Assembly: GCF_000013445.1 (NCBI RefSeq)
Contig: NC_007796.1
Span: forward strand, 310,001-374,000
Direction of reading: 5' to 3'
DNA: 64,000 nucleotides
Origin: Methanospirillum hungatei JF-1
GTDB lineage: Archaea > Halobacteriota > Methanomicrobia > Methanomicrobiales > Methanospirillaceae
The position numbers and the translations under genes were made by a program. Every line of letters starts with the position of its first letter. Position 1 is the first letter of the stretch. The notes under the pieces are model-generated. The model did not search any database. It saw nothing but the letters and a program-made list of their open reading frames with translations, and was not told the origin of the DNA. Shown here piece by piece: positions 1-27,957 of this stretch.

Positions 1-333
1 TATCTCTGGTCTGATGACACAACTACCGGAAGCATCCCTCTTGATTTTGAAATAGTATATGATAAGGGCCAGAATGCAGACTATTGGTTAAATCCGGGTA
101 CTGCTATGACTCTTCAGGAATTATTGGGAGAGGACGCCAGGTATTCAGAGTTTACAGCTGTAAAATCTAAAAAGATTTATAACAATAATGCCCGAGTAAA
201 TGCCGGAGGAGGGAATGATTACTGGGAATCCGGCGTGGCACATCCTGAAACAGTATTAAAGGATTTAATTAAAATATTCCATCCGGAAATCGTGTCAGAT
301 CATAATCTGGTTTACTATCGGCATCTGGAATAA
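1..333 (+). CDS. ABC transporter substrate-binding protein, BtuF/FepB type (3' part)
   Basis: The reading frame is open from the first base to a TAA at 331-333, so this is the C-terminal 110 residues of a gene that begins outside the window. The tail (YNNNARVNAGGGNDYWESG, then AHPETVLKDLIKIFHPEI) matches the end of periplasmic-binding proteins of the Peripla_BP_2 family, which deliver iron chelates, corrinoids or haem to FecCD/BtuC permeases. The next gene, a permease of that class, starts directly at base 334, so both belong to one operon. The ligand cannot be told from this part. Family call is firm; substrate is open. Confidence 0.85.
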   Translation, partial: YLWSDDTTTGSIPLDFEIVYDKGQNADYWLNPGTAMTLQELLGEDARYSEFTAVKSKKIYNNNARVNAGGGNDYWESGVAHPETVLKDLIKIFHPEIVSDHNLVYYRHLE

Positions 334-1416
334 ATGAAATATCCAATATCAATGATTCTGTCCGGGCATTTCAATATGAGAATTACAGGAATAATGATAT
401 TCCTTCTTCTTTCATTAATTATCCTGTTTTTTCTTGAATTAGTTCTCGGATCAGTTGCAATCCCCTATCCAGAAATTGTCCGTATTCTTACTGGTCAGGG
501 TTCCTCTCATGACAGCTGGATTATGATCATTTACAATTTCCGCCTGCCAAAAGCAATGGTTGGTTTATGTGCAGGTGCATGTCTCGCAATCGCCGGTCTT
601 TTTATGCAGACCCTTTTTCGAAATCCTCTGGCCGGACCTGATGTTCTTGGTCTTTCAGCAGGAGCAGGTCTTGGGGTTGCAATTGTTGTTCTCTCAGCAG
701 GAACGGCTGGAGCCTCTTCAATTCTTGGTAATCTTGGATTCTTCGGAAGTGTTGGTATTGCAATAGCAGCATCTTTTGGATCAGGTCTTGTACTGTTGAT
801 GATCCTGGCGGTTTCAAAAAGAGTTCAAAACAGTATGACGCTCCTTATTCTTGGACTCATGTTTGGGTATACTGCAAATTCTTTCATTTCGATTCTCATG
901 CATTTTGCCCTTGCAGAGCGTATACAGGCATATACCATATGGAGTTTTGGTTCATTTGGTGGAGCGACATGGGACCAGATACAGGTTTTGGTTTTGTTTG
1001 CCGTATTAGGTCTGATATATTCGATATCTCTGATAAAACATCTGAATGTACTCCTTCTCGGTGACCAGTATGCCGAGAGCATGGGTCTTGATCTTATCAG
1101 AACAAGAAATAAAATTTTCATCATCACCGCAGTTCTCTCCGGAGTGGTAACGGCATTTTGCGGACCTATTGGGTTTATTGGTATATCTGTCCCCCATCTC
1201 TGCCGTGCACTCTTTGCGACTGCAAATCATTGCATTCTTATTCCGGCATGTATCCTGCTGGGGGCCTGTCTTGCTCTTACTGCTGATATTATTGCATCAG
1301 TTCCGGGGTATTCCATTACTCTTCCATTAAATGCCATTACCTCCCTTATCGGGGCACCAGTAGTTATTTGGATTATTTTTTCAAAAAGCAGGAATGGGAT
1401 GGAGGTCAGTGTCTGA
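334..1416 (+). CDS. FecCD/BtuC-type ABC transporter permease
   Basis: A 360-residue, very hydrophobic protein with about ten membrane segments. Typical FecCD family marks are the RLPKAMVGLCAGACLAIAGL stretch near residue 75, NPLAGPDVLGLSAGAGLG near residue 100, and GPIGFIGISVPHLCR in the C-terminal third. It would form the membrane channel for iron-siderophore, corrinoid or other metal-chelate uptake. Length is normal for the family, with a slightly long N terminus. Its ATG follows the binding-protein stop without a gap, and its TGA overlaps the ATPase ATG, so translation is likely coupled. Confidence 0.93.
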   Translation: MKYPISMILSGHFNMRITGIMIFLLLSLIILFFLELVLGSVAIPYPEIVRILTGQGSSHDSWIMIIYNFRLPKAMVGLCAGACLAIAGLFMQTLFRNPLAGPDVLGLSAGAGLGVAIVVLSAGTAGASSILGNLGFFGSVGIAIAASFGSGLVLLMILAVSKRVQNSMTLLILGLMFGYTANSFISILMHFALAERIQAYTIWSFGSFGGATWDQIQVLVLFAVLGLIYSISLIKHLNVLLLGDQYAESMGLDLIRTRNKIFIITAVLSGVVTAFCGPIGFIGISVPHLCRALFATANHCILIPACILLGACLALTADIIASVPGYSITLPLNAITSLIGAPVVIWIIFSKSRNGMEVSV

Positions 1417-2435
1417 TGGGGCTTATAAAAATAGACAAACTTACCATCGGATACAAAAAAAGAAAGAATGGAGAGAGAAAAGTCATCTCTCATCTTAACC
1501 TGGATATGAAATCCGGTGAGTTAATATGTCTTGTAGGTCCGAACGGCAGTGGAAAATCAACTCTTTTAAAAACAATTACTGGCCTTCTGCCGCCGTTAGA
1601 CGGTGAGGTTTTTCTTTCGGGCAGGAATATAAGATCGATATCATCTCTGGAACGGGCTAAACTGGTATCTATGGTACTAACAAATCCGGTACAGGCTGGA
1701 CAACTGACGGTATATGATGTGTGCAGTCTGGGAAGGTATCCACATACCGACTGGATGGGATCATTGGCACAGGAAGACCATGATATGATAACCGCATCTC
1801 TGGATGCTATTGGAATCAGACATTTTGCACACCGGTATTTACATGAACTGTCAGATGGCGAACGACAAAAGGTGATGATTGCCCGGGCTCTTGCACAAAA
1901 TTCAAAACTCATAATTCTGGATGAACCTACTGCCTTTCTTGATATGCCCTACCGGATAGAAATAATGCACATTCTCAAAAATCTTGCCATGAACGAAGAT
2001 CGGGGAATTCTCCTTTCAACACATGATCTGGATCTCGCAATGCGAACCGCAGATCGTCTCTGGGTCGTCAATCATGATGGTTCTTTTCATGATGGTGCTC
2101 CTGAGGATTTGGTTTTAAATGGAATTATTTCACAGGTGTTTGCAATTGGTGAAATCTCCTATGATGCTGAGCGGGGACATTTTCATATGCCTGTCCATCC
2201 TAAGGGATCAGCCCGGATAACTGGAGAGAATGGGAAATTCAGATTCTGGACAGAAAGAGCCATGGAAAGGATTGGATATATCTCACAGGAAAATGAACCG
2301 GCAGAGATTCATGTACATATCGCTCCCACAGAAAGTTGTATAACGTGGATCATTAAGACTCCCGGTACAGTGAAAAAATTTTCCAACCTGACTGATGGAA
2401 TACATTGGATACAAACCTTAAAGCTAGTTGTTTAA
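1416..2435 (+). CDS. ABC transporter ATPase, BtuD/FecE type
   Basis: A 339-residue ATPase with Walker A GPNGSGKST, signature LSDGERQK, Walker B LIILDEPTAF and H-loop STHD. I chose the ATG at 1416 because it overlaps the permease stop (TGATG) and has GGAGGT at 1401-1406; a more upstream ATG at 1368 would lie inside the permease gene. About 80 residues after the core make a C-terminal extension longer than in BtuD or FecE. It completes the importer that precedes the nitrogenase-like genes, which links the imported ligand with their reaction (inference). Confidence 0.93.
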   Translation: MGLIKIDKLTIGYKKRKNGERKVISHLNLDMKSGELICLVGPNGSGKSTLLKTITGLLPPLDGEVFLSGRNIRSISSLERAKLVSMVLTNPVQAGQLTVYDVCSLGRYPHTDWMGSLAQEDHDMITASLDAIGIRHFAHRYLHELSDGERQKVMIARALAQNSKLIILDEPTAFLDMPYRIEIMHILKNLAMNEDRGILLSTHDLDLAMRTADRLWVVNHDGSFHDGAPEDLVLNGIISQVFAIGEISYDAERGHFHMPVHPKGSARITGENGKFRFWTERAMERIGYISQENEPAEIHVHIAPTESCITWIIKTPGTVKKFSNLTDGIHWIQTLKLVV

Positions 2436-2492: not shown

Positions 2493-4679
2493 ATGAAATA
2501 TAATAACACGGACGGACCGATTTCTCGAATTGCAGTGTATGGAAAAGGAGGAATAGGAAAATCGACAATATCAGCTAATATTTCTGCAGCTCTTGCAGAT
2601 GAAGGATATTCAGTCCTACATATAGGTTGTGATCCAAAACATGATTCAACCAGGACACTTCTCGGGGAACTTCATACGCACACCGTAACCGATTTTTTTC
2701 GAACATCGAAAATTCAGACTGATTATTCAGACCTCATCCGAATAGGTTATAATGGAATTGCCTGTATAGAAGCCGGGGGTCCAGAACCTGGTGTAGGTTG
2801 TGCAGGAAGGGGAATTCTGAGTACATTTGAAATTCTCAAACGGATGGAGACTGATTCTTCCCGGTATACCTATACCATCTATGATGTCCTGGGTGATGTG
2901 GTATGTGGAGGATTTGCTGTCCCACTCCGACATGGATATGCAGATCTCATTCTGATTGTGACATCTGGCGAATATATGTCATTGTATGCAGCGAATAATA
3001 TCCTTCGTGGCATTCATAACTTCGATGGCAATATTAAACGAATTGGTGGGATAATATATAATTCCCGGGGAGGAGCAGAAGAGGATGAACAAGTCAGAAA
3101 ATTTTCCGTTGCGGTCAGTCTCCCTATCCTTGTAAAGATCCCCAGAAGTGAGATCTTTCTTACCGCAGAACGGCATTCAAAGACCGTTGTTGCTGCATTT
3201 CCAAATAGCCAGGAGACAGTATTATTTCGGAAACTGATATCTGAATTTTTTTCAACTAAAAATCCTATTCCCAGGTATCGTGCCCACCCTCTTGAAGTAA
3301 TGGAACTTGAGTCACTGATACTCGGAAGAGATATATCCGGATATACCTCCCCCTCTCATCAGGTCCCTGTAAATTTCAGGCCCATAACAAATGACACAGA
3401 TAATGGAACTGTTCATTGTACAATCCCACAAAAGCCTTCTCTTTTTGGTTGTGCATTTGCCGGGGCAATAGCCGTACTCTCTCAAATCCAGGATGCTTCT
3501 ATTATTGCCCATTGTCCCTCAAGTTGTGCACATATTGTCTCAAATCTTCTGGTCTCTTCACAAAACCGGGACCGTGATAAATCTGCTGATTATGGTAAAC
3601 AGACGTCGTTTTCATTTATTCATACTGGAATGGATGAAAAAATGATGGTATTCGGGGGGATAGAGGGGTTAAAAAAAACTATTATTAAGTCTGTTGAATC
3701 CGGCAATCGTGTAATATTTATTGTATCCGGTTGTACACCCGGTATTACCGGGGATGATATTGTTGGTTGTGCATCTGAAATGAGCCAGAATCTGGGTATT
3801 CCGATCATTCCTGTATCGGTCAACGGAATCGGAGAGGGAGATTTCAGTGCTGGCATCATGGCAGGGTATCACGCCTCTTTACAACTGGTGAAACAGGAAG
3901 CCGGGAAAAATGAACGTTCTGTGATCCTTGTTGGAGAAAAAATACTTGCAAATAATACTACTGCAAATTTTAATGAATTAAGTCAGTATCTCTCTACCCT
4001 TGATATCCAGGTTTCATGTAGGTTTCTTGCATATACCTCTGTAAACGAAGTGCAATCCATGAGTGAACAGAGTCTTATTCTGCCGGTATCTTCTGATAAA
4101 ATTACCCTGGAAATATCTAAAATTATTTCAGAAAAAACCGGATCAGAAATTTTTAACCATGCTTTTCCGTATACCTTCAATGAGACAGTCAGATGGATTC
4201 AGGATCTTGCTGATAGATTCAGGATCCAGGATAAAGGTTCGGCTCTGATCGCACGAAATGAGAAAATATACCGTAAAGAAATTGCATTGATTATGCTGAT
4301 GACTGCTGGAAAACGGGTTATTATCGCCTCATCTGGTCCGGATATATCCTGGGTTTTAGAGGCGGTCAGAGAATGTGGGATGGAAATAATCCGTGCAGGA
4401 TATTTTTCATCTCCGTATACGACGAAAAATAATCAAAAAGAATCAGAACCATCAATTGTAATGGATTATACTCCTGATGCACTCTATGATGATATCAAAA
4501 CATACCGCCCGGACCTTGTATTAACCACTATCTGGCTTGATTATAAAAAAGCTGACGTACGGTATGGAATGATCCCCTTTTGTCCAAATGTGGGATTTTT
4601 TGGAGCATTATCCTCAATGAAACACTGGGCATCTATTCTTTCAGGGCCGGTAAGAGAAGGATGGAGGAATGATCTTTGA
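2493..4679 (+). CDS. NifH-like / NifD-like fusion protein of a nitrogenase-like reductase
   Basis: 728 residues joining two proteins that are normally separate. Residues 10-265 are a NifH/BchL-like iron protein: P-loop GKGGIGKST at 18-26 and the two cysteines that hold the bridging 4Fe-4S cluster, Cys103 (GVGCAGRG) and Cys138 (DVVCGGFA). Residues about 305-728 are a NifD/NifE/BchN-like component of the oxidoreductase/nitrogenase family: GCAFAGA (Cys320), HCPSSCAH (Cys345) and SGCTPGITGDD (Cys414) sit where NifD and BchN carry ligands of the P-cluster or its 4Fe-4S equivalent. The pair is therefore an ATP-driven reductase with its electron donor in the same chain. The substrate is unknown; importer and CobN neighbours favour a tetrapyrrole. 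GGTGAT precedes the ATG. No nifB, nifE/N or other nitrogen fixation gene is in the window. Confidence 0.85.
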   Translation: MKYNNTDGPISRIAVYGKGGIGKSTISANISAALADEGYSVLHIGCDPKHDSTRTLLGELHTHTVTDFFRTSKIQTDYSDLIRIGYNGIACIEAGGPEPGVGCAGRGILSTFEILKRMETDSSRYTYTIYDVLGDVVCGGFAVPLRHGYADLILIVTSGEYMSLYAANNILRGIHNFDGNIKRIGGIIYNSRGGAEEDEQVRKFSVAVSLPILVKIPRSEIFLTAERHSKTVVAAFPNSQETVLFRKLISEFFSTKNPIPRYRAHPLEVMELESLILGRDISGYTSPSHQVPVNFRPITNDTDNGTVHCTIPQKPSLFGCAFAGAIAVLSQIQDASIIAHCPSSCAHIVSNLLVSSQNRDRDKSADYGKQTSFSFIHTGMDEKMMVFGGIEGLKKTIIKSVESGNRVIFIVSGCTPGITGDDIVGCASEMSQNLGIPIIPVSVNGIGEGDFSAGIMAGYHASLQLVKQEAGKNERSVILVGEKILANNTTANFNELSQYLSTLDIQVSCRFLAYTSVNEVQSMSEQSLILPVSSDKITLEISKIISEKTGSEIFNHAFPYTFNETVRWIQDLADRFRIQDKGSALIARNEKIYRKEIALIMLMTAGKRVIIASSGPDISWVLEAVRECGMEIIRAGYFSSPYTTKNNQKESEPSIVMDYTPDALYDDIKTYRPDLVLTTIWLDYKKADVRYGMIPFCPNVGFFGALSSMKHWASILSGPVREGWRNDL

Positions 4680-5947
4680 TAACTGGAGTAACAGATCCTG
4701 ACATCCTTACCGGAATGATACTGGGTGCTGAGGGGATTCCAGATATTATGGTGATTTTAAACAGTCCAACCGGATGTAAATTTTATCATGGGCATATTGC
4801 ACATCTCAAGAGGAACGAATCGGATATTTCTGATCCATATCTTCGTCCTGAGCCATGGTTTTTCGGACAATCACGGATTCCTTGTACGTATCTTGACGAT
4901 AGGGATTACATCTTTGGAACTCATGATAAACTTGAAAAAATCCTGACCTACATAAAAACCCGGTGGAGCGGCCTTATCGTTCTTATCAACGCTCCTGGTG
5001 CTTCACTCATAGGAGATGATCTGAAAAAAGTAATAGCCATTATGGAGCTGGAGGAAAGATGTATTCCGGTTGAAATACCTGGATATTCACTATCAGCACC
5101 AACCGGAGTTGATCGAATGCTGGTCAGAATTCTGGAACATTTAAGACCTTCAGGAAAACCCGATAATAAGGTCAATCTTATCGGCTTATCGATTCTTCAG
5201 CGATATTGTGAAGGAACAAAAAAAGAAATTTCATATCTCCTTGAAAAATCAGGAATATTCGTTCTTTCAACTCCGGGAGCAGGGTCAGACACAGAAAACC
5301 TCATTGCATCATCCGGTGCGTCCCTCAATGCCATAGTGTTTCCAGAATATGCAATTGAAACAGCCAATTTTTATGCAAATTCCTATAAAATCCCTTTCAT
5401 TCTGCCAAAAGATGGAGCCCCGGTAGGATTTGATGCTACAAAGTCCTGGATTACCGATATCTGCAGGGCTTTCGGAACAGATCCCATCTTTGTGAATAAG
5501 GAGATTCATTCTGCCAAAAAAACCGCTGCAAGCAATATTGCCCGTGTAAATGCAGTATCCGGAATTCCCCGTGGTTCAGGATTTGCCATACGAGCGGAAA
5601 GTTCTCTTGCACTTCCCCTGGTAAAATGGCTCTATACGTACCTTGGTATGATCCCGGTCGGAATAGAACTTACTGATGGCTCATGCCAGGTATATTCTGA
5701 TGAACTCAGGATCTTTCTTCAGGAGAACCATCTTATTCAGTTCCTGGGAATCTTTCCTGGAAAAGACCCGGATATTGTTTTTACTGATGGAGCAACAGGA
5801 AATATGATGAAAAATCAAGGCATTTGCAGAGGATATATTGATATTTCTCATCCACCATCTGGAAAAATAGAAATAATTCCCAAAACAATCTTTGGAATTT
5901 CCGGATCACTCATGCTTATAGAGGAAATCTTAAATATTCTGCGTTGA
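4676..5947 (+). CDS. NifK/NifN/BchB-like component of a nitrogenase-like reductase
   Basis: 423 residues of the same oxidoreductase/nitrogenase family as the second half of the upstream fusion, so the two probably form a heteromer. Visible family marks are NSPTGCKFYH (Cys34), CTYLDDRDYIFGTHDKL (Cys70), NAPGASLIGDDL near residue 105 and GIPRGSGFAIRAESSLALPL in the C-terminal domain. The position before IGDD that is cysteine in NifK (TTCMAEVIGDD) is proline here, so cluster ligation differs from NifK. Start is a TTG at 4676 overlapping the upstream TGA, with GGAGG at 4663-4667; no in-frame ATG is better placed. Its last 18 bp overlap the end of the convergent cobN gene. Confidence 0.82.
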   Translation: MITGVTDPDILTGMILGAEGIPDIMVILNSPTGCKFYHGHIAHLKRNESDISDPYLRPEPWFFGQSRIPCTYLDDRDYIFGTHDKLEKILTYIKTRWSGLIVLINAPGASLIGDDLKKVIAIMELEERCIPVEIPGYSLSAPTGVDRMLVRILEHLRPSGKPDNKVNLIGLSILQRYCEGTKKEISYLLEKSGIFVLSTPGAGSDTENLIASSGASLNAIVFPEYAIETANFYANSYKIPFILPKDGAPVGFDATKSWITDICRAFGTDPIFVNKEIHSAKKTAASNIARVNAVSGIPRGSGFAIRAESSLALPLVKWLYTYLGMIPVGIELTDGSCQVYSDELRIFLQENHLIQFLGIFPGKDPDIVFTDGATGNMMKNQGICRGYIDISHPPSGKIEIIPKTIFGISGSLMLIEEILNILR

Positions 5948-8900
5948 TATCTTTTTTTGAGGATCTGTCAAAGATTCCAGGTTACTCTCTATGGATAAGT
6001 ATATGGATTGGAGTAATCTGAGTGTTTCTTCATCAGGACTCCACATTCCGCGATCCACCGCTTCAAGCAATCTGCCAGACATATGTATGAGTGCATAAGG
6101 ATTATCTTCCGATAACCATTCCCGGCAGGACTCATCAAAGAGAAATGTTTCAGCAAGTGACTGGTACTGCCATTCTTCAAGAACGTCAGCAGTAGCATCC
6201 CATCCAAAAGCAAAATCAAAAAGGTAAGTTAATTCCTGTGCCCCCCTATACCGGTGAGGTTTCAGACCTTCCAGCCATTTTGGATTCTGAATTCGACTTC
6301 TAAACAGAAATTTACTTTCTTCTTCAATCGTCCGGATGACCGGTTTATCAGGATCAGAACTATCCCCCACAAACGAAACCGGATCTTTTTCTCCATACGC
6401 TTTGGTAACCGCAATCATACCTCCATGATACATGAAATCATCATCATTATCTAATATATCAAGTTCTCGCGAATTGTGGTTTTTTACTGTTACATCAAGT
6501 TTGGAGAGAAGAGTTTTGAAAAGATCCTTCATAACCTCCCCTTTATATTTACGCCCATATGCATGACCGCCCCAGTCAAGATAAGTATCTGCAAGATCCT
6601 GCTTTTTTTCCCATCCGGATGTAATAATTTTATCTGCAACTCCTGCTCCATATGTTCCCGGAGGGCAGCCAAAAATCCTGATAAGTGCCCGCGATCTGGC
6701 CTCTTCTGGATCCATTCCATTTTTCAGTGATTCAAGCAGGGATTTACGAAGATGAGATGCAAGATAATTTTCTTCATCCTTTTCATCAAGGGTTGCAATC
6801 ATCTCAACTCCTTCATCAATCAAATCGACAAGACCGGGAAAAACATCACGAAAGAGGCCGGTTATCCGAAGAGTAACATCTATCCGTGGCCTTTTCAGAT
6901 CCGATAATGGAATAATTTCAAGACCTGTAACTCGTCCTCCATATGCTGACCAGAGAGGACGAAGACCCATAAGCCAGAGAAGGTATGCAATATCATCCCC
7001 TCCGGTTTTCATACTGTCGGTCGCAAAAATGACAATTCCAACATTTTCAGGATAAACACCTTCATCTTTGACGTACCGCTCAATCATCTGATTAGCCATC
7101 TTTTTTCCTATGGCAAAAGCAGCAGGTGTTGGGATTATCGCTGGGTCAATAGAGTAAAAATTCCTACCCGTGGGGAGGATGTGGGCATTTCCCCTGGTTG
7201 GAGGGCCTGATGGACCAGGAGGAACATACCTGCCATTGAGTCCGGATAGCAGGTTATTCATCTCATCGGTGGTCTGTTCAAGGTTAGGGACAATATTTTT
7301 ACAAATCTTGTAAAGTGTTTCGTTCAGATCTGGATCATTGCATAAATCCCGTGTAATATCTGGTATTTTTTCAGGATTACATCCTGTAGCAACAATGCTT
7401 CGGATTATATCAAATGAAAGTGTATCGATATCATCGAGTAATGCACCATTCGGTTTTTGAAATAAATCGTTCCAACCGGAAGGGTTTTCCTGTAGTTCGG
7501 AAAGAACAAGGCCCATAGATTTTCCAATGGATTCACGAAGTGAGGGTATTGATCCATTTTTAATTCTTGTCAGAGCGTAGAGCATTTCAGAAAATCTCTC
7601 TCCCTGAGGACAAAAACCATAAATGTGAAGGCCATCCTTGATTAAAGAATCCCTGGCCGTACATAGATAATCATACATTGATCCCAGCGATACTGCCAGA
7701 TTCTCTGGGGCTGACAGAGAGATCTGAAGATCAGAAGCAAGGTTTGTCTCTTCAACCAATATTTGAATTTCTTTTAGGATTTCAGATGCTTTTACGTCAT
7801 CGCGGTTCTTTTCTGCACGGAAATACTCCTGGATATATACTGTGAGTTCCTCAAGATTACCATATCCTCCTGCACGAGTCATGGCAGGGATGAGGTGATC
7901 CAGGATAACTGCTGAAGATCGTCTCTTTGCCTGTATCCCCTCCCCTGGGTTATCAATAATATATGGATACAGGTGTGGAAGATCCTCAATCATCATATCC
8001 GGATAACATGTTGATGACAGCCCCACACTTTTACCTGGAAGCCATTCCAAGGTCCCATGGGTTCCCATGTGGATGATTGCTTGTGCTTTGTATCCTTCTT
8101 TGAGCCACCGGTAAAAAGCAAAGTACTGGTGGGGCATAACAATGTCAGTACTATGATAAACCGCATCAGCGTCCTCTAAAAATCCGCGTGGTGGCTGCAG
8201 TCCGATGAAGATGTTCCCAAACATTTTTCCTGGAATAAGAACCTTTTTTTCGGCAGTCAGAATTGTTCCCGGTGGTTCTCCCCAGTCATGTATAATTTTC
8301 TGACTGCATATCTCCGGTATTTTGGAGAGCCAGGTCAGATATTCATCCCTGGATACCAGATCTGCAGATTTACTTAGTAACTCCCCCTCATCCATACATT
8401 CGGGTGTGTTCGTCAGACCTGATAAGAGCAGGTGAATAAGTTCCTGTCCTGATGCAGGAAGTATTTCTCCACAATCATATCCCGCATTTTTCATTGCGTG
8501 GAGGATTTGAACTACACTTTCCGGAGTATCAAGACCAAATGCGCCACCGATGCAATCATTGGCAAGACCATACTGGTAGAGAATAATTGCAACCCGTCTT
8601 TCACAAACCGGAGTACGTCGAAGTGAAGCCCATGATTTTGCCATTTTTGCGACTTTCCGAGTTCTTTCTTCAATTCCATTAATCTTCCTTGAATTTTCAT
8701 CCGGTTCATGGCATGCAATTGGAATTGAAATAATCTGTCCATCGTATTCTGGCCAGACTACATGAGAAGATATTTCCAAAATAGAAAGTCCTGCGATATT
8801 TTCACTCCATTCACCATAACTTTGGTTGGTAGTAATGAGCTGCAGGACGGGAACTCCAAGGGAAGAAAAAAAGTTATCTGGCTGAATTCCTGTTTCCCCT

Positions 8901-9697
8901 GAACACGATACCGAAAAGCTGAGCTGGGAAAACCCCATCATGATAAGCAGCACATCAATTGTAGTTTTGTCATCCTCCATAAAATAATGGCGAATAATTT
9001 CTGAGATTCCAGGTGATCCACTAATTGGATCCGGCGCTGATGAACAAAATACCGGTACGGTATCCAAACCCTCTTCTTCAAGAGAAGAGATGACCAAGTC
9101 AACTGCTGCAAGGGATTTCGAAAGGTAGTCGTTTTGCCAAAAGAGAATTCCCGCTTTCAAGGTACTTTTTGGGAGGAACATTCGATATTCTGATATCTGG
9201 ATGTCCGGGTACCATCCTGGATGATATATACCATGAGTTGGAGGTTGTACTGGTTTAGGAATGCTGTGATCCCCTTTTCCTATCTGCACATACACCCAAA
9301 GAAGCAAAGAACGCATGTTCTGTAAACCCCCAAGATGGAGGTATGAATAAACCTGACGATAATCGTCATTTGAGAATGGGAACCAGGATCGATATTCTGT
9401 CATTTCCTCTTCGATTGTACTGATAAGAAACACAGGGCATTTCTCTGAATTTATTGTTTCCCGAAGCCGGGGAAATTTCTTAAAATATGGGACTGAACCA
9501 TGGAGGTTTATTATGATAAAATCTACAGAAGAAATTTCTTTGAGAACATAAGAAAAAACCTCCTCATTTTTATCCAATTCTTCAGAGCAATATTGAATAA
9601 CATTTATATTACAGGATTCTTTACGTAAATTTTTTGCAGCCTCAAATAGAAGACGATTTTCGCCACTACCAGAACCAAGATAGAAAAGATTAATCAT
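5930..9697 (-). CDS. cobN: CobN-like chelatase large subunit, first copy
   Basis: 1255 residues of the CobN/BchH magnesium/cobalt chelatase family, the large subunit that binds the tetrapyrrole and the metal. Conserved blocks include [38 protein letters not shown] and GVIFATDSMKTGG-like sequence (here GIVIFATDSMKTGGDD). The length is normal. AAAGGAG lies just before the ATG at 9697. The copy has no ATPase partner next to it and may use the ChlI-ChlD fusion at 17001-19043. It lacks the cysteine-rich insert of the second copy. Convergence with the nitrogenase-like operon suggests a shared pathway, but metal and substrate are not shown by the sequence. Confidence 0.9.
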   Translation of the reverse strand: MINLFYLGSGSGENRLLFEAAKNLRKESCNINVIQYCSEELDKNEEVFSYVLKEISSVDFIIINLHGSVPYFKKFPRLRETINSEKCPVFLISTIEEEMTEYRSWFPFSNDDYRQVYSYLHLGGLQNMRSLLLWVYVQIGKGDHSIPKPVQPPTHGIYHPGWYPDIQISEYRMFLPKSTLKAGILFWQNDYLSKSLAAVDLVISSLEEEGLDTVPVFCSSAPDPISGSPGISEIIRHYFMEDDKTTIDVLLIMMGFSQLSFSVSCSGETGIQPDNFFSSLGVPVLQLITTNQSYGEWSENIAGLSILEISSHVVWPEYDGQIISIPIACHEPDENSRKINGIEERTRKVAKMAKSWASLRRTPVCERRVAIILYQYGLANDCIGGAFGLDTPESVVQILHAMKNAGYDCGEILPASGQELIHLLLSGLTNTPECMDEGELLSKSADLVSRDEYLTWLSKIPEICSQKIIHDWGEPPGTILTAEKKVLIPGKMFGNIFIGLQPPRGFLEDADAVYHSTDIVMPHQYFAFYRWLKEGYKAQAIIHMGTHGTLEWLPGKSVGLSSTCYPDMMIEDLPHLYPYIIDNPGEGIQAKRRSSAVILDHLIPAMTRAGGYGNLEELTVYIQEYFRAEKNRDDVKASEILKEIQILVEETNLASDLQISLSAPENLAVSLGSMYDYLCTARDSLIKDGLHIYGFCPQGERFSEMLYALTRIKNGSIPSLRESIGKSMGLVLSELQENPSGWNDLFQKPNGALLDDIDTLSFDIIRSIVATGCNPEKIPDITRDLCNDPDLNETLYKICKNIVPNLEQTTDEMNNLLSGLNGRYVPPGPSGPPTRGNAHILPTGRNFYSIDPAIIPTPAAFAIGKKMANQMIERYVKDEGVYPENVGIVIFATDSMKTGGDDIAYLLWLMGLRPLWSAYGGRVTGLEIIPLSDLKRPRIDVTLRITGLFRDVFPGLVDLIDEGVEMIATLDEKDEENYLASHLRKSLLESLKNGMDPEEARSRALIRIFGCPPGTYGAGVADKIITSGWEKKQDLADTYLDWGGHAYGRKYKGEVMKDLFKTLLSKLDVTVKNHNSRELDILDNDDDFMYHGGMIAVTKAYGEKDPVSFVGDSSDPDKPVIRTIEEESKFLFRSRIQNPKWLEGLKPHRYRGAQELTYLFDFAFGWDATADVLEEWQYQSLAETFLFDESCREWLSEDNPYALIHMSGRLLEAVDRGMWSPDEETLRLLQSIYLSIESNLESLTDPQKKISTQNI

Positions 9698-10561: not shown

Positions 10562-11086
10562 ATGGATAAAGATCGGAAAGGATACATTCAGGTATATTGT
10601 GGAAACGGAAAGGGGAAAACAACTGCAGCACTAGGTCTCTCGCTCAGGACCCTTCTCTCTGGTGGATCAGTGTATTTTGCCCAGTTTTGTAAAGGATCAG
10701 AGACGGCAGAATTGGGGCTGTGTACACTCTTTGATACCTTTGTGATGGAACAGTATGGAACCGGGAAGTTCATTATCAGTGATCCTACTGAAGAAGACCT
10801 AAAGCAGGCAAGATTGGGACTTGAACATTGCAAAAGTGTGCTGTCATCCGGTTATTTTGACCTTGTCGTCCTTGATGAGATAATCATGAGTGTCTATTAC
10901 CGGCTAATCACCATTGAAGAGATTCTCTCTATGCTGAAATCCAGAAAGTCATGGGTTGAAGTGGTACTCACCGGGAGAAAGGCGCCACATGAGTTGATTG
11001 AAGCAGCAGATCTGGTCACAGAGATGAAAAAAGTGAAACATTATTTTGATATTGGGGTGAAAGCAAGGAAAGGGATAGAATTCTGA
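10562..11086 (+). CDS. cobA: Cob(I)alamin adenosyltransferase, CobA/BtuR family
   Basis: 174 residues with P-loop CGNGKGKTTAALGLSLR at the N terminus, the DLVVLDEI Walker B strand and the EVVLTGRKAPHELIEAAD and DLVTEMKKVKHYFDIGVKAR segments of the CobA/CobO/BtuR family. The enzyme moves the adenosyl group of ATP to reduced corrinoids, making the adenosylated form. It is a little shorter than bacterial BtuR (about 196 residues) because of a shorter N terminus. Its presence between two CobN loci and two BtuFCD-type importers supports corrinoid import or remodelling as the theme of this region. Confidence 0.93.
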   Translation: MDKDRKGYIQVYCGNGKGKTTAALGLSLRTLLSGGSVYFAQFCKGSETAELGLCTLFDTFVMEQYGTGKFIISDPTEEDLKQARLGLEHCKSVLSSGYFDLVVLDEIIMSVYYRLITIEEILSMLKSRKSWVEVVLTGRKAPHELIEAADLVTEMKKVKHYFDIGVKARKGIEF

Positions 11087-12295: not shown

Positions 12296-13303
12296 TTACA
12301 AGACTGGTGCATAATATTCGCCCATTTCTGTTCCGGAAACAAAGGTATCAGCATACTCTTGTAAGACATCTTTTGGATTAAGGTCTTTACATTCATCCGG
12401 GTGCAATGCCTTTGCAAGATATACGAGACCAGCCGGACTCCGGGGACCATAAACAAGGTCTCCATTCAGGACAAACACTTGTTTTTCTTTTACTGCATCA
12501 AGTGAGTCAAACCCGGTTCTTGCAATCATCTCTTCCCTGACCTGTTCCAGCGTTTTATCCGGCTTAAGGGAGACTGTTTTTATAATTACCGACGGATTCT
12601 CACTCATAACCCATTCAGGAGTGACTTTTGGCCATTGTTCACCAAGACTTGCAGCAAGGTTTTTTCCCCTGGCTATTCCCATAAGAATATCTATTCCGCT
12701 GTCTTTGCCCTGAGCAGAATAATCAGAATATCCTTCAATGTATGCTGTCGGGAGATCTTGTTCAGGAATATTTTTCAACCGTGACGTAACTTCATCCTCC
12801 CATTTCTTCATGAAGGTAAGATATTGTTCTGCTTTCTCATCAGCACCGATCAATGTTCCCAGAGATGTAATATCCTGTTTAAGAGTATTGAATTTATAAC
12901 AGTCAAGATAAATCAGATTAATTCCTGCGTTTTTCAACTGTTCAGCGTTCTTTGGTTTGGAACTGGAATACGAAATGACGGCATCTGGTTTTAATGCAAG
13001 AATCCGCTCAATACCGGGTGTCTGCCAGTCTCCAACACTTATCGCGTTTGGCATGTGTTTCATGAGTGCAGTATCTTTCATGGTACTATCAGTAAGACCA
13101 ATTATGCTGTTTCCTGCCCCAAGAATCACCAATGCTTCTGCTGCATCACTGTTCAGGCAGATAATCCTTTTCGCAGCAAATGGAAGGGTGATGGTATCTC
13201 CTGACGTATCGGTGAATGAGACATCAGCAGAGCAAAATGGTAGTATTAATCCACAAACAATGACGAATATCGCGAAGTAGGAAATGTACGAGTTTTTCAT
13301 CAT
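12296..13303 (-). CDS. ABC transporter substrate-binding protein, BtuF/FepB type
   Basis: About 335 residues with a secretion signal (MMKNSYISYFAIFVIVCGLI, processing near FCSA) and the Peripla_BP_2 layout: ITLPFAAKRIICLNSDAAEA, the GIERILALKPDAVISYSSSK strand, and a C-terminal VLNGDLVYGPRSPAGLVYLA segment. It should bind an iron chelate or tetrapyrrole outside the membrane. I used the MM pair at 13303/13300 since it starts the signal peptide cleanly; the frame is open to 13339. It is the last gene of the seven-gene minus-strand operon headed by the second cobN, 51 bp after the ABC-2 permease. Confidence 0.9.
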   Translation of the reverse strand: MMKNSYISYFAIFVIVCGLILPFCSADVSFTDTSGDTITLPFAAKRIICLNSDAAEALVILGAGNSIIGLTDSTMKDTALMKHMPNAISVGDWQTPGIERILALKPDAVISYSSSKPKNAEQLKNAGINLIYLDCYKFNTLKQDITSLGTLIGADEKAEQYLTFMKKWEDEVTSRLKNIPEQDLPTAYIEGYSDYSAQGKDSGIDILMGIARGKNLAASLGEQWPKVTPEWVMSENPSVIIKTVSLKPDKTLEQVREEMIARTGFDSLDAVKEKQVFVLNGDLVYGPRSPAGLVYLAKALHPDECKDLNPKDVLQEYADTFVSGTEMGEYYAPVL

Positions 13304-13354
13304 GGTAATCATCAGTTTTTTGTTCGTCTGGCAATACAAAAAGCGTAGGAATTC

Positions 13355-14080
13355 TCATACCTGGACTTTTCTGAATACATGAACTGCAACTCCGATTATG
13401 GACACACACAAGATGGATAAAAATCCGATCTGAGTCAGAGGAATCTCTCCGGTCTGGAAGATCCTGATCCCATCTATCGCAAAACTGAGCGGATTTATTT
13501 GGGCTACAGGTATTAGCCATGAGGGCATCTGTTCGTAGGGCATCATTGCCGATGAGGAGAAAAACAGGGGCATCGTAATCATTGCGTTGGCAGCAGCATA
13601 TTGATCATGATCATCCAGGTAGATCGCAATAGACGCCGCTGCTGAAGCGAGTAATGCCCCGAAAATGATCAGGATAAGGTATGTTCCTGCTAATTGGGAT
13701 GGAGTATAGAGTTTCGCCCCAACAAGAAAAGCGAAGCAGAGAATTATCGTTGACTGAATAATTCCCCTGATTGAAATTACCAGAATCTTTCCAAACAGAA
13801 TACTTTCCCGTGGTGGGGGAAGAGCAAGAAATTTATTAAAAAATCCAAGCATGCGGTCAAGAATGAGTAGTCCTCCACCAGCGAGCGATGCTGAGAGAAT
13901 AGTCATCACAAGAATTCCCGGGGTTACAAAGTCGATGTAATTATCGGTAAAGGATATCGGAAGGGCCAGGCCTACAAAGAGGAGCCACGCTGCAGGCATG
14001 ACCATGGCGGAAATAAACCCCCATTTCCCTCTGAACCAACGGATCAAATCCCGACGGCAGTATACCAGAATCGGATTCAT
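13355..14080 (-). CDS. ABC-2 type transporter permease
   Basis: 241 residues with about six membrane segments, the layout of DrrB/NodJ-like ABC-2 membrane proteins (VTPGILVMTILSASLAGGGL; IFGALLASAAASIAIYL; PLFFSSSAMMPYEQMPSWL). Such proteins usually export drugs, polysaccharides or lipids. GGGAGGAG precedes the ATG and the start overlaps the end of its ATPase gene by four bases. An exporter inside a chelatase and BtuCD-type uptake operon is unusual; it may remove a product or by-product, which is inference only. Confidence 0.88.
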   Translation of the reverse strand: MNPILVYCRRDLIRWFRGKWGFISAMVMPAAWLLFVGLALPISFTDNYIDFVTPGILVMTILSASLAGGGLLILDRMLGFFNKFLALPPPRESILFGKILVISIRGIIQSTIILCFAFLVGAKLYTPSQLAGTYLILIIFGALLASAAASIAIYLDDHDQYAAANAMITMPLFFSSSAMMPYEQMPSWLIPVAQINPLSFAIDGIRIFQTGEIPLTQIGFLSILCVSIIGVAVHVFRKVQV

Positions 14081-15060
14081 CCTCTCCTCCCGGTCATATT
14101 TCGAAACGTGCTTAGATTAAAAGGACCCTTATCCTCTTCAGTTCCGACAAGATGGAGAAATACATCATCCAGAGAAGGTTTTCGAAGTGACATGGCGGTT
14201 ACGGTCACGCCATTTACACTCAGGGCATCTTTGATTTGAGGGAGAGCCTCGTCTCCCGAATCAGCATAGAAGATTATGCTTTCATCTTCGAAAAAGGCGA
14301 ACCTGACACCGGGAAGATCAACTCCTGTGTATGTACCTGAAACAGATACCGAAATTACATCTTTTGAGATAATTTTTTTAAGATTTTCCGGAGTGTCTAT
14401 CGCCTTGATAGTGCCATGATCAATAATTGCAACCCTATCACAGTACTTATCAGCTTCATCCATGTAGTGTGTCGTTACAAAAATCGTCATCCCGGCATTG
14501 CGGAGTTTCTTAATATGCTCCCAGATCTTTTTTCGGGCTGCTACATCAAGCCCAACCGTGGGTTCATCAAGGAATAGAACCTTGGGATTGTGGACAAGAG
14601 CCTGGGCAAGTTCCAGTCTTCTTCTCATTCCACCGGAGTATACTTTGGCATATTCATCAGCACGGTCGGATAGTTCCAATATCCGGAGTACTTCTTCGGA
14701 TCGTTCAGCCGGGTTTTGGACTCCGTACAGTTCTGCAAACATATGAATATTCTCTCTCCCGGTAAGCCTGACGTCAACTGCCATATCCTGCGGGACATAA
14801 CTGATCGAATCCCTGACTTTCCTTGGTTCGGTCTGGATATTATATCCACAGATTTCTGCAGTTCCTTCTGTCGGTTCGAGGAGAGTTGTCAGCATCAGAA
14901 CCGTGGTTGTTTTTCCTGAACCATTTGGACCGAGAATGCCAAATATCTCGTTTCCAACGGAGAGATTGATTTGATTTACAGCACAGAGGTTACCGAAGTT
15001 TTTTGTAAGCTTTTTCGTGATTATTTTACTATATGGACAGTTTTGAATTTCTTTTTTCAT
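14077..15060 (-). CDS. ABC-2 type transporter ATPase, DrrA-like
   Basis: 327 residues with Walker A LGPNGSGKTT, signature YSGGMRRRLELAQALVHNP, Walker B VLFLDEPTVGLD and the H-loop VTTHYMDEADKYCD. The YSGGMRRR signature and the C-terminal extension ending in PSLDDVFLHLVG are typical of the DrrA/CcmA group that powers ABC-2 exporters. It abuts the BtuD-like ATPase gene with no gap and overlaps the ABC-2 permease gene by four bases, so the pair is translated together. Confidence 0.92.
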   Translation of the reverse strand: MKKEIQNCPYSKIITKKLTKNFGNLCAVNQINLSVGNEIFGILGPNGSGKTTTVLMLTTLLEPTEGTAEICGYNIQTEPRKVRDSISYVPQDMAVDVRLTGRENIHMFAELYGVQNPAERSEEVLRILELSDRADEYAKVYSGGMRRRLELAQALVHNPKVLFLDEPTVGLDVAARKKIWEHIKKLRNAGMTIFVTTHYMDEADKYCDRVAIIDHGTIKAIDTPENLKKIISKDVISVSVSGTYTGVDLPGVRFAFFEDESIIFYADSGDEALPQIKDALSVNGVTVTAMSLRKPSLDDVFLHLVGTEEDKGPFNLSTFRNMTGRRG

Positions 15061-15867
15061 TCAGATCACATTTATCGGTTTGGGAGATGTCCGGTCTTCT
15101 GCCTTTTTCCAATCAGGTAAAACGTACCTGCCTGCATCTGTTGTGACAAACTGCATGGGGATTCCATATACTGAAATGATATTTTCCTCAGTCATTACCT
15201 CTTCAACAGTTCCCATACTCACAATCTCTCCTTTATCCAGCAGGATTACCCGATCTGCGTAATGATAAGCAAAATTAAGATCATGCACTGCTACCAAAAC
15301 AGATCGACTTTGAGAATCTGCGATTCTTTTAATCATCTGGAATACATCAATCTGGTGCTTGATATCAAGGGCACTGGTTGGTTCATCAAACAGGAAATAA
15401 TCCGGTTCCTGGGCAATTGCACGGGCAATGAAAACCCGTTGTCGTTCTCCTCCAGATAATTCGGTGAGCATTTTTTCAGCCATGGATGTGATATGGAGCA
15501 TTTCCATTGCAGTATCGACTTTTGCCAGGTCATGCTGGGTCAGTGACCATTGTACATGGGGGCGGCGACCAAGAATGACAGCTTCAAGGACTGTTGAAGA
15601 GGTGAGATACTGAAAATCCTGGGGGACATACCCAATCTTTTTCGCTATCTCATTCCGGGAAATAGAATCCAGGTTCTGACCTTCCAATGAAAGGTTCCCA
15701 TATTTAGGCTCCATAATTCCTGCAATTGTCTTGATTAACGTGCTTTTACCTGATCCGTTCGGTCCGATGATACACAGAACTTCTCCAAGAGGAAGAGAGA
15801 AACTGATATCAGAGAGGACACGAATGGATCCATAATGCACAGATAATTTTTCAACGACAAGTGTCAT
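15061..15867 (-). CDS. ABC transporter ATPase, BtuD/FecE type
   Basis: 268 residues with Walker A GPNGSGKST, the Q-loop YVPQDFQYLTSSTV, signature LSGGERQRVFIARAIAQEP, Walker B YFLFDEPTSALD and H-loop VAVHDLNFAYHYAD. It belongs with the FecCD-type permease 10 bp upstream in the operon and the binding protein at the operon end. It would drive uptake of a metal chelate or corrinoid. Length is usual for the family. Confidence 0.94.
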   Translation of the reverse strand: MTLVVEKLSVHYGSIRVLSDISFSLPLGEVLCIIGPNGSGKSTLIKTIAGIMEPKYGNLSLEGQNLDSISRNEIAKKIGYVPQDFQYLTSSTVLEAVILGRRPHVQWSLTQHDLAKVDTAMEMLHITSMAEKMLTELSGGERQRVFIARAIAQEPDYFLFDEPTSALDIKHQIDVFQMIKRIADSQSRSVLVAVHDLNFAYHYADRVILLDKGEIVSMGTVEEVMTEENIISVYGIPMQFVTTDAGRYVLPDWKKAEDRTSPKPINVI

Positions 15868-15877
15868 AATCCGCCTC

Positions 15878-16963
15878 TCATGTGATCATCCGGTGTTTTC
15901 CCCGTAATATGAGGAACATGAAAAAGATACCCCCGATTACATACATGATAACCCCGACCGGGATCTCAACCGGGTCCATAATCGTTCGTGCAGCGGTATC
16001 CGAGATCAACAGAATGAGTGCTCCCAGGAGGGCGGAACAGGGGATCAGGAACCGGTTATCATTTCCAATCAGCATTCTGCCGATATGGGGGCCCATCAGA
16101 CCAATAAATCCGATAATCCCGGTAAATGCAAGGCAAGCTGATGCTGCCAGGGTTGAGACGAACAGTCCGGTCAGACGAAGTCTGTTCACATTGACCCCCA
16201 GGTTTTTTGCAACATCATCTCCGGCTGAGAGGGTATTGAGATCCCAGGCTTTGGATTCCAGATAAAGGAAACAGAGGAGTGAAATTGGAGCGACGATAAT
16301 AATTGCTCCCCAGTTCGCACCCCACATCCCTCCCATCAACCAGAGGGTAATCTCCCTGAGTTTTTCATCATTTGTCAAATACTTCAGAATCATGACACCG
16401 GCAGTGAAGATATACCCGATAACAACCCCGGCAAGGATAAGGGTAGCACTTGATGAACCTTTCATCTGTGAGATTGCATAAATAAAAAGAATTGAAAACC
16501 ATCCCAGAAGGAATGCTGAAAAGATGATGACGCCGTTTTGAAATTCTTTCGGGATGAAAGGCATAAGGGAGGCTCCAAAGACGATAGCCAGGGCAGCACC
16601 GAATGATGCTGCGGATGAGAGTCCAAGGGTAAAAGGACTTACAAGCGGATTTCGAAGGAGTGCCTGCATGACACATCCGGCTATCGCAAGACTTATACCG
16701 GTAAATATTGCAAGAAGTACCCGTGGCATTCTGAAATCAATCACCACCGTCTTTTCAGAAGGGAAATCTTTCAGAAGATCCGGGTTCATTACTGCCTGAT
16801 GAACTATGGTAAGGATCCGATCAAAGGAGAGATGGTAGGATCCTGCATTCAGGGCATAAATACTTGCACAAAAGAGGAGAATGGTAAGCCCTGTGATAAC
16901 TATGAATTTCTGTTTTCTCCCGGATAGGTATAGGGAGATGGATGCATTTTCTGGTGATTTCAT
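15878..16963 (-). CDS. FecCD/BtuC-type ABC transporter permease
   Basis: About 361 residues with around ten membrane segments and the family stretches RMPRVLLAIFTGISLAIAG, NPLVSPFTLGLSSAASFGAA and FTGIIGFIGLMGPHIGRMLI. I take the ATG at 16963; the codon before it is a TTG that would add one residue. It follows the chelatase gene by 37 bp and precedes its ATPase by 10 bp. It is a paralogue of the permease at 334-1416, so the region has two importers of this class with probably different ligands. Confidence 0.93.
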   Translation of the reverse strand: MKSPENASISLYLSGRKQKFIVITGLTILLFCASIYALNAGSYHLSFDRILTIVHQAVMNPDLLKDFPSEKTVVIDFRMPRVLLAIFTGISLAIAGCVMQALLRNPLVSPFTLGLSSAASFGAALAIVFGASLMPFIPKEFQNGVIIFSAFLLGWFSILFIYAISQMKGSSSATLILAGVVIGYIFTAGVMILKYLTNDEKLREITLWLMGGMWGANWGAIIIVAPISLLCFLYLESKAWDLNTLSAGDDVAKNLGVNVNRLRLTGLFVSTLAASACLAFTGIIGFIGLMGPHIGRMLIGNDNRFLIPCSALLGALILLISDTAARTIMDPVEIPVGVIMYVIGGIFFMFLILRGKHRMIT

Positions 16964-17000
16964 CAAAAATTTCTCTGATGGTACATGAAGTAATTCATAT

Positions 17001-19043
17001 TCAAGCCAAGGATGTTTTCATTCCTGATACTACTGCACTGGATAGATCTGAAGCAGTCAGATCTGAGATCTGGAAGTATCGTCCCTGTGTCCGCTGTGCA
17101 ATGAAAGGACAGAATCCAAGTTGAATACTTAACCGTCCTTTCTGTTTTGATTCGGTATCGATAATGACGGTTTCAATTCCGGCTTTTACCAGGTCATCGG
17201 TAATTAATCCAATCTCATCTTTCAGTTTTCCTCCATTTCCGACATTCGCCCGTCCATCGGTAATAAGAACGAGTAGGGGAAGTAATGATGGATACTTTTG
17301 TTTCTCCCGCATGAGTATTGTAAGGGATTTTTGCAATCCGGCTGCAAGCGGGGTTTTTCCACCGGTTGGCAGTTCAGATAAGCGCTGGTATGCAAGATCT
17401 ATGCTGGATGTAAGGGGCAGAACCACATCTGCTCCTTCACCCCGGAATGCAACAAGGCCGACACGATCCCGGTTCTGGTAGGAATCTTCAAGCAGGGAGA
17501 AAATAGCCCCTTTTGCTGCCTCCATCCGCTGTTCAACCCCCATCGAACCACTTGCATCCACGACAAAGAGGGTGGCAGTGGCCGTTTTTCCTATCCGTTT
17601 CTTCTGAAGGACTTCATCTGAACGGATAACTATGGCCAATGAGTCTGACAGACGCATCTTCTGATACGGGGAAACGGCCCGGATTGTGGCATCAAGGGCG
17701 ATGTCACGTCCGGTTGGTCTTTTTTCCGCACCGATATACTGACCACGCCGGTCTCCTCCGTTCGTATCAAACCGTCGCCCCGGGGCGTATCGTTTTTCAA
17801 CCGTTCTTCGGTCCGGTGATTTTATCTTATCCGGATCTATGGGCGATCCAATCCGGAACACCTGCTGTTCCTTTGGAGCGTTCCCTTGTGAAGCTGATGG
17901 ATCTGTTCTGTTTTCTGGTTCAGATTGCTGGTTTTGTCCCTTGGATTCCTGTTGATCAGATGGGGGTTGATCCGGAGGGTTGTCCTGCTGATTCTCCTGA
18001 TTTTGGGAAGGTTCGTTCATCAGGTCATCAAGCTTTTCCGGATCAACTTTTGGCTCCTCAAACGGTCTTCTTCTCATCCGGTGGGGAAGGGCAAGTTCAA
18101 TAGCCTCCCGAAGGTCGTCCTGGTTTACGGTCTTCCGACCATCAAATGCTGCTATGGTCTTCGCTGTCCTGACAATGGTGATCTCGGCCCGGTGTGTTCG
18201 TACCCCAAGGCCAATGCACACATCCACTGCTTTTCGCACCAGATCATCTGAAATCGTTACACTGGGGAGGATTTTTATCGCTTTCCGAATCTTTTTTGCG
18301 ATATCTTTCTGCTTTCTTTTGAATTTCTGACGGAAGGTATCCGGATCTTTTAAAAACTCTTCAGATGTCTTGACGATCGCCATTCGTTCATCCGGATTAT
18401 CAAGTGCCTCAACCGATACCTGGAGTCCGAACCGGTCTAGTAACTGGGGTCTCAGTTCTCCCTCCTCAGGGTTCATTGTGCCGATGAGAATAAACCGTGA
18501 GGGGTGTGAAAATGATATTCCTTCACGTTCAACCGTGTTCACCCCCATGGCGGCTGCATCAAGAAGCACATCAACGACATGATCATCAAGAAGGTTTACT
18601 TCATCAATATACAGAATTCCGCGATTTGCATCAGCGAGTATTCCAGGTTCAAGTGCTTTAATTCCTTCCTTTAATGCCCGCTCAATGTCTATCGTGCCGA
18701 CAACCCGATCCTCGGTTGCCCCGACCGGTAAATTCACCACCCGTATCTGCTGGTCTTTTGGATTTGGCAGAGATTTTTGTTTCTTTTTTTCTGCACAGAG
18801 TTCACAAAATTCAGATTCTTTTTTCGGATCACAGGAGAACGGGCACCCGGGAACTACCGTTATCATGGGAAGTATTTCGGCAAGAGACCGGACCGCGGTT
18901 GATTTTGCAGTCCCCTTCTCACCCCGGATAAGGACACCTCCGATGGTCGGGTTGATAGCATTCAGGACCAGGGCTTTTTTCATCTGGTCCTGGCCGATAA
19001 TAGCAGTAAATGGAATAAGCGGTTTTTTATGATGATGAGACAT
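17001..19043 (-). CDS. ChlI-ChlD fusion, chelatase ATPase/integrin-I subunit
   Basis: 680 residues. The N-terminal AAA+ half has Walker [10 protein letters not shown] at 41-49 and Walker [13 protein letters not shown] near 141-152. A Pro/Gln/Asn-rich acidic linker spans about 345-395, and a von Willebrand A domain with the MIDAS motif DASGSM at 496-501 ends the protein. This is the BchI-BchD arrangement in one chain, the motor that works with CobN or BchH in metal insertion. A four-cysteine group (Cys67, Cys71, Cys80, Cys83; CPFSC and CELC) is inserted shortly after Walker A and may bind zinc or a cluster. Its start codon overlaps the stop of the cobN copy (TAATG), so the two subunits are co-translated. 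Confidence 0.92.
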
Positions 19044-24158: not shown

Positions 24159-24183
24159 TCATACAATATTGCGTACAATAACA

Positions 24184-25756: not shown

Positions 25757-25840
25757 GAATTCTCCTTTTTTTGACAAATAATTAATTCTGAATAAAAAAT
25801 TACTATTTTTTCAATAAAGAAAGAAAAATAGAAAAAAGAT

Positions 25841-26530: not shown

Positions 26531-26535
26531 CTTTT

Positions 26536-27225: not shown

Positions 27226-27240
27226 TCTTTTCTCCTCCGG

Positions 27241-27951: not shown

Positions 27952-27957
27952 GGTCTC

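Follow-up and report, generated by a model that had tools for sequence, protein, structure and literature searches.

A NifH-type reductase fused to a NifD/E-type subunit in Methanospirillum hungatei and other methanogenic archaea, with a possible role in corrinoid processing

In the characterised enzymes of the nitrogenase type considered here, the reductase is a free protein that docks on the catalytic part and then leaves. With a natural one-to-one tether between the two, it could be tested whether turnover requires dissociation. Such a tether is encoded in a stretch of 64,000 nucleotides from Methanospirillum hungatei JF-1 (NC_007796.1, positions 310,001 to 374,000; hereafter the window), part of a genome of 3,544,738 bases in a single contig. 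One gene, NflHD, combines a NifH-type reductase domain (H) with a NifD/E-type catalytic domain (D), and is followed by the gene of a partner, NflK. The question is whether this fusion is genuine and what the enzyme does. We are close to certain that NflHD-NflK is a real fused two-component reductase. Our preferred reading, to which we give a probability of roughly 0.5, is an ATP-driven reductase with the working type of CfbCD and the dark-operative protochlorophyllide oxidoreductase (DPOR), with a tetrapyrrole as its substrate: most likely a corrinoid, brought in by BtuFCD and then modified by CbiZ and chelatases.

Motifs, candidate ligands, the fusion and the operon were read directly from the DNA. 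In NflHD, amino acids 12-276 match PF00142 (Fer4_NifH; E 2.8e-80, 270.1 bits) and 320-716 match PF00148 (Oxidored_nitro; E 3.4e-82, 276.9 bits). Both matches, as well as that of NflK to PF00148, lie above the gathering cut-offs, which places the pair in the nitrogenase superfamily (NifH plus component-1 type). The stop of NflHD and the start of NflK overlap by 4 bases. The original prediction, made from the window alone, had described a single frame with the NifH P-loop, Cys103 and Cys138, a NifD/E-like domain with Cys320, Cys345 and Cys414, and a separate NifK/N-like partner; every one of these elements is present (Table 1).

We searched 150 genomes of the order and 393 of the phylum. The first search yields eight more full-length fusions at 38-43% identity; the second finds the fused D half in 22 genomes, divided over two groups (families f1/f2 and a Methanosarcinaceae-like family, f8). 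Names of families and genera beyond Methanospirillum are inferred, genera g82 and g93 being taken as Methanosarcina-like. At least 25 other genomes (Methanomicrobiales and Methanosarcinaceae) contain this fusion, single-contig genomes among them, and all matches within the fused-D clade carry it. Identity to the other fusions in the aligned set is 37-42%. No relative found has an interrupted frame (open frames of 729-807 amino acids). Neither Cys103 nor Cys138 varies among the 27 aligned fusions, the core of the H-domain switch motifs is likewise invariant, and the P-loop almost so. At each of the 26 loci read in detail (from both searches combined; several end at contig ends) an NflK-type gene lies directly 3' of the fusion. 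The ratio of nonsynonymous to synonymous substitution rates (dN/dS) of M. hungatei against its closest relatives is 0.12-0.15 for H and 0.17-0.35 for D. Because the frame is open in all relatives and dN/dS is 0.12-0.35 on both halves, chance or an assembly error can be excluded; given also the invariant catalytic residues, an artefact of assembly or gene calling, a frameshift or a decaying gene has a negligible probability.

A contig scan gave only two close Methanospirillum-type loci (78-85% identical). Contig MWDJ01000051.1, labelled Bacteroidetes bacterium ADurb.Bin145 (locus L039:1-12718), carries a Methanospirillum-type fusion operon at 78% identity and is probably misbinned. In genome G149 (contig C9), what looked like a D-K fusion turned out to be two frames separated by a stop.

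The predicted structure of NflHD contains two well-formed domains: H matches NifH at a Z-score of about 35, and D matches component-1 subunits such as MarD and NifD at Z 26-29. Residues 282-318 between them have a predicted local distance difference test score (pLDDT) below 50. Since the predicted template modelling score (pTM) of the model is only 0.56, the mutual placement of H and D is not predicted. Among the aligned fusions the distance between residue 255 and Cys320 ranges from 60 to 139 residues, and dN/dS of the linker (0.36-0.53) is higher than that of the two domains. Given this variable length and higher ratio, the natural reading of the linker is a tether under weak sequence constraint that joins two constrained enzymes. 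Stand-alone fusions of Methanosarcina-like genera (L083, L084, L086-L093) mostly have longer linkers (745-805 amino acids in total) than operon-borne ones (728-766).

Which clusters the enzyme would hold was derived from ligand columns in an alignment of 127 D/K-type domains. Fused D keeps all three P-cluster cysteines of NifD in 28 of the 28 D halves. At the columns of NifK C70, C95 and C153, NflK has Asp9, Cys34 and Pro107 (27/27), whereas NifK, MarK and the K of an unfused Methanomicrobiales trio have Cys-Cys-Cys; the six-cysteine P-cluster is therefore lacking. The column of NifD Cys275, which serves the cofactor, is variable in fused D and holds Cys in NifD, NifE and MarD. These patterns suggest that, as in DPOR, the D/K interface carries a single [4Fe-4S] cluster bound by four or more protein ligands and that a FeMo-type cofactor is absent; it is quite likely that [4Fe-4S] clusters are the only ones present. 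DPOR (BchL-BchNB) is similar in its H plus D/K heteromer and in having Cys and Asp as candidate ligands of the interface cluster, but its BchL is a free homodimer, and the fusion stays far under the cut-offs of the profiles for DPOR and chlorophyllide oxidoreductase (187, 170, 64 and 51 bits for TIGR01281, TIGR02016, TIGR01279 and TIGR01278). The ligands do not coincide completely either: the three D cysteines are there, but the column of BchB Asp36, the middle one of the three in K, holds Cys34, with Asp9 at the NifK Cys70 column.

Table 1. Positions of the fusion gene, its partner, candidate functional residues and neighbouring genes in the window, and of the unfused trio in other genomes.
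Feature	Position	Strand	Remark
NflHD fusion gene, 728 amino acids, ATG start	2493..4679	+	NifH-type reductase domain, linker, NifD/E-type catalytic domain
P-loop GKGGIGKS, H domain, amino acids 17-24	2541..2564	+	
Cys103 (GVGCAGRG)	2799..2801	+	candidate H-domain [4Fe-4S] ligand; invariant
Cys138 (DVVCGGFA)	2904..2906	+	candidate second H-domain cluster ligand; invariant
H-D linker, ~40 amino acids, about 277-316	3321..3440	+	disordered in model; length differs among relatives
Cys320	3450..3452	+	NifD Cys62 column; candidate D/K-interface cluster ligand; 28/28
Cys345	3525..3527	+	NifD Cys88 column; 28/28
Cys414	3732..3734	+	NifD Cys154 column; 28/28
NflK partner gene, 423 amino acids, TTG start	4676..5947	+	PF00148, E 3.7e-40, 138.5 bits
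NflK Asp9	4700..4702	+	NifK Cys70 column; 27/27
NflK Cys34	4775..4777	+	NifK Cys95 (BchB Asp36) column; 27/27
NflK Cys129	5060..5062	+	invariant; 27/27
NflK Cys384	5825..5827	+	invariant; 27/27
BtuF-type binding protein, 3' end (start upstream of window)	1..333; L096:9143-10333 = G000:309143-310333	+	PF01497
BtuC/FecCD-type permease	334..1416	+	PF01032, E 2.1e-73
BtuD-type ATP-binding cassette (ABC) ATPase	1368..2435	+	PF00005; corrinoid/Fe-dicitrate/heme-type models
CobN, cobaltochelatase large subunit	5930..9697	-	TIGR02257, 1007.7 bits vs 822 cut-off
CobO/BtuR ATP:corrinoid adenosyltransferase	10562..11086	+	PF02572, E 5.9e-59
Unfused NflH-NflD-NflK trio, Methanomicrobiales	L099:7389-10355; L168:1131-4075; L171:1117-4091; L173:1919-4857		

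For the substrate we turned to the neighbouring genes, named by Pfam matches plus clustering. In M. hungatei the gene set spans from CbiZ (G000:301480, before the window) to CobO within the window. Locus L085 (genome G428) shows a run of ten genes on one strand (CbiZ, ChlI-like, ChlD-like, BtuF, BtuC, BtuD, NflHD, NflK, CbiK and CobN), most of them overlapping or less than 200 bases apart. Counted over the 26 loci, CbiZ is a neighbour in 16, BtuF and BtuD in 14, ChlI/ChlD in 11, CobN (within about 10 kb of the fusion) and CbiK in 9 each, and a xylose-isomerase-like triosephosphate isomerase (TIM) barrel in 7. CbiZ, BtuF and BtuD stand together in 14 loci, as in a corrinoid salvage or remodelling operon; BtuC was not recognised in one of these. 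The original prediction regarded the importer and CobN as the fixed company of the fusion, which is too strong a statement for 14 and 9 of the 26 loci, with both absent from ten Methanosarcina-like ones. Its idea of an imported tetrapyrrole or other metal cofactor as the substrate fares better, as the setting of importer and chelatase holds. The presence of CbiZ, ChlI, ChlD and CbiK in the wider neighbourhood now points more specifically to corrinoids. Among BtuF, NflHD, NflK, CbiZ, CbiK and CobN, an N-terminal signal-like segment is seen in BtuF only, so processing probably takes place in the cytoplasm.

From this we infer that the substrate is a tetrapyrrole, which seems fairly probable; that it is a corrinoid has about an even chance. 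Any one specific chemistry (Co(II) to Co(I), reduction of a ring double bond, or reduction coupled to metal removal) is doubtful. Several points weigh against the corrinoid reductase proposed here. The substrate is assigned from neighbouring genes, and none of these neighbours occurs in the ten Methanosarcina-like loci (genera g82 and g93); consequently, the neighbourhood indicates no substrate in those genomes. Every one of the 22 fusion genomes in the phylum sample has CobN and CbiZ (background 228/393 and 318/393, respectively), but these figures ignore kinship, and the two families occur commonly across the phylum. All 20 fusion genomes tested also have CbiD, which marks de novo corrin synthesis, so that corrinoid salvage is probably not essential for them. 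The cluster types are read from cysteine patterns. The resemblance of the NflK model to DPOR speaks for our reading, as its nearest match is BchB (ten DPOR entries at Z 36-38, best 37.8, against about 32 for beta chains of nitrogenase and Mar), though this fold may partly be a matter of short length. For the backbone of the H domain and its sister group, approximately unbiased (AU) tests reject none of four alternatives.

If the corrinoid reading is right, BtuFCD would import the corrinoid and electrons would enter the [4Fe-4S] cluster that two NflHD chains coordinate between their H domains (Cys103/Cys138). MgATP-driven docking would hand them over singly to the D/K-interface cluster (D Cys320, Cys345 and Cys414; K Cys34, perhaps Asp9), from where they would reach the substrate in a cavity equivalent to the FeMoco site of nitrogenase. 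Reduction by NflHD-NflK would thus occur in the cytoplasm at the cost of ATP, where CbiZ and the chelatases would process the corrinoid. Tied by its disordered linker, the reductase would stay at a high local concentration. Free-standing enzymes, such as nitrogenase and the DPOR complexes, place one H2 dimer on each DK half. In the fusion each D is tied to its own H, which implies an H:D:K ratio of 1:1:1; therefore, either one H2 would be shared by two DK halves (in turn) or H domains would pair between neighbouring complexes. It is reasonable to expect that the covalent link would alter the docking cycle. A further and rather speculative variant, drawn by analogy with HmuS, which uses NADH for heme, is that the tethered reductase drives reductive removal or exchange of the corrinoid cobalt: Co(I) or ring reduction would allow CobN-ChlI-ChlD (and CbiK) to remove or swap the metal. 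If true, both the reaction and the catalytic cycle would be new, with a single reductase domain for each DK half.

Among the other explanations, a dedicated cob(II)/cob(I)rrinoid reductase survives best, though it remains unlikely. Here the enzyme's only task would be to supply CobO with imported cobinamide or cobamides in the Co(I) state, for adenosylation before CbiZ cuts the lower side chain. In favour of this, the substrate of CbiZ is adenosylated cobinamide, and the Co(II)/Co(I) couple has a very low potential. CbiZ is found in 16 of the 26 loci, and in M. hungatei CobO/BtuR adjoins the cluster. On the other hand, CobO may not be a conserved neighbour, most organisms perform the step without ATP-driven reductases, and CobN, ChlI, ChlD and CbiK in the operon would be left unexplained.

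Scavenging of heme or porphyrin is less probable still: BtuFCD would import heme, CobN would de-chelate it like HmuS, and the reductase would reduce the iron or the macrocycle. There is precedent: the CobN-like HmuS strips heme of its iron, using NADH as reductant (what archaeal homologues do was called unclear in 2025; PMC12583661), and CobN-like 'BtuS' proteins shift with the iron source in M. barkeri (PMC10846266). The ABC ATPase next to the fusion also matches heme-transporter models. CobN of M. hungatei, however, passes the equivalog cut-off for cobaltochelatase and has no membrane-anchor-like segments. CbiZ, furthermore, is corrinoid-specific.

A tree of D and K domains (IQ-TREE, LG+F+R4, 65 sequences reduced from 127) bears on the next candidate. 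Fused D is monophyletic (ultrafast bootstrap, UFBoot, 98) and sister (UFBoot 100) to the D of the unfused H-D-K trio in Methanomicrobiales, and together they join NifD/NifE/VnfD (UFBoot 100); the tree gives fused K no firm position. This branching, and the fact that the D half scores best against NifE, would fit a nitrogenase or a reductase of sulfur compounds (Mar/Isr type) that has both a P-cluster and a complex cluster in its active site. Likewise, Mo-nitrogenase (NifHDK/NifEN) shares the superfamily, the domain folds and the H motifs. Its reductase is not fused, however, and NflK lacks two of the three P-cluster cysteines and D the conserved cofactor cysteine. AU tests reject fused D as sister to NifE (p 0.00001), NifD (p 0.0002) and MarD (p 0.0014), fused D and MarD fall in separate clades, and no NifDKEN set was found in M. 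hungatei. The cut-offs for nifH (TIGR01287, 288.6 of 394 bits), nifD (TIGR01282, 95.5 of 654) and nifE (TIGR01283, 117.6 of 505) are all missed. A nitrogenase or Mar identity was rejected on ligands and trees, and appears very improbable.

About as little can be said for a second or variant F430 enzyme, that is a CfbCD-like Ni-sirohydrochlorin reductive cyclase, which we deem very improbable. CfbCD also combines an archaeal NifH-type ATPase with a NifD-type catalytic subunit and has a tetrapyrrole substrate. CfbC is the best-scoring profile for the H half (NF033200, 302.5-324.2 bits), and an AU test leaves fused D as sister to CfbD unrejected (p 0.23), CfbD being a very long, movable branch. 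But the CfbC score lies under the cut-off of 402, as does the CfbD score (TIGR03282, 24.4 against 268.4 bits), and CfbD forms a separate clade (UFBoot 100). Both proteins are also encoded separately in M. hungatei (CfbC at 419 bits, CfbD at 571 bits), above cut-off in each case, and the other fusion genomes examined also have separate CfbC- and CfbD-type genes; a CfbCD paralogue was rejected on these grounds. In addition, CfbCD has a separate H protein and a D homodimer, and CfbD functions without a K partner (PMC11423573), whereas a K gene follows the fusion at every locus read. Since the sister position is unrejected, our claim is limited to fused D not lying inside CfbD. In a FastTree tree the fused H sequences form one clade (support 1.0) with a long stem. 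The original prediction would have been refuted by halves that group inside a characterised clade such as CfbCD or NifHDK; neither half does so.

The unfused trio whose D is the sister of fused D consists of separate genes with shorter D and K and all six P-cluster cysteines, three on each. The H of the trio at L099 passes the CfbC cut-off (412 bits). In the trio genomes CfbD lies elsewhere, and one H may therefore serve two partners. On plasmid pTS1 of Treponema saccharophilum (L194:8995-15291), NflH, NflD and NflK directly precede a BtuF-C-D (FecBCD/BtuFCD-type) importer. These genes are unfused and belong to another clade in the D/K tree, so this set is not supported as a direct unfused ancestor. 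Two NifH-NifD-NifK-like sets on a Candidatus Chlorohelix plasmid (L160, L196), accompanied by NifB/radical S-adenosylmethionine and O-acetylhomoserine sulfhydrylase genes, branch together as Mar-like.

A literature search for a described NifH-NifD fusion gave passing mentions only. A table for Ca. Methanomassiliicoccus intestinalis lists a 'fused nifH/nifE' (PMC4153887), and a 'NifDH homolog' in termite-gut Bathyarchaeia is ascribed to an unidentified archaeal tetrapyrrole pathway (PMC7886697). Going by these descriptions, both apparently have the same two domains in one protein and may be orthologous to NflHD; the passages in question are silent on clusters, partner, operon and phylogeny. A 2020 review cited in PMC7886697 may hold more. 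The terms searched for in two recent phylogenies of nitrogenase-like proteins (PMC11423573, PMC12552129) returned no mention of the fusion. Hence the earlier statement that no enzyme of this build and setting was known to have been described needs correction as to the fusion, which those two sources mention, whereas our search found no characterised member and no account of the partner, ligand pattern, clade or operon.

Taken together, many methanogenic archaea carry an uncharacterised nitrogenase relative, with the reductase joined to the catalytic part and often encoded among genes for uptake and modification of B12-like pigments, that probably reduces such a pigment in an undescribed way. 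The operon suggests an unknown ATP-dependent step in the corrinoid salvage of methanogens. It also offers a concrete setting for the archaeal CobN homologues discussed in PMC12583661.

The window holds further genes of note. A second BtuF-BtuC-BtuD set without NflHDK (12296-22762) includes a fused ChlI/ChlD-type protein (17001-19043) and a second CobN (19043-22762). It is adjoined at 23187-25777 by a Znu/Mnt-type metal ABC importer (binding protein, permease and ATPase), judged by eye. Finally, four consecutive archaellin/pilin-like genes at 25841-28656 have near-identical N-termini (SPVIG or SPVVG, then LMLVVTIIIAAVVSGFAGG).

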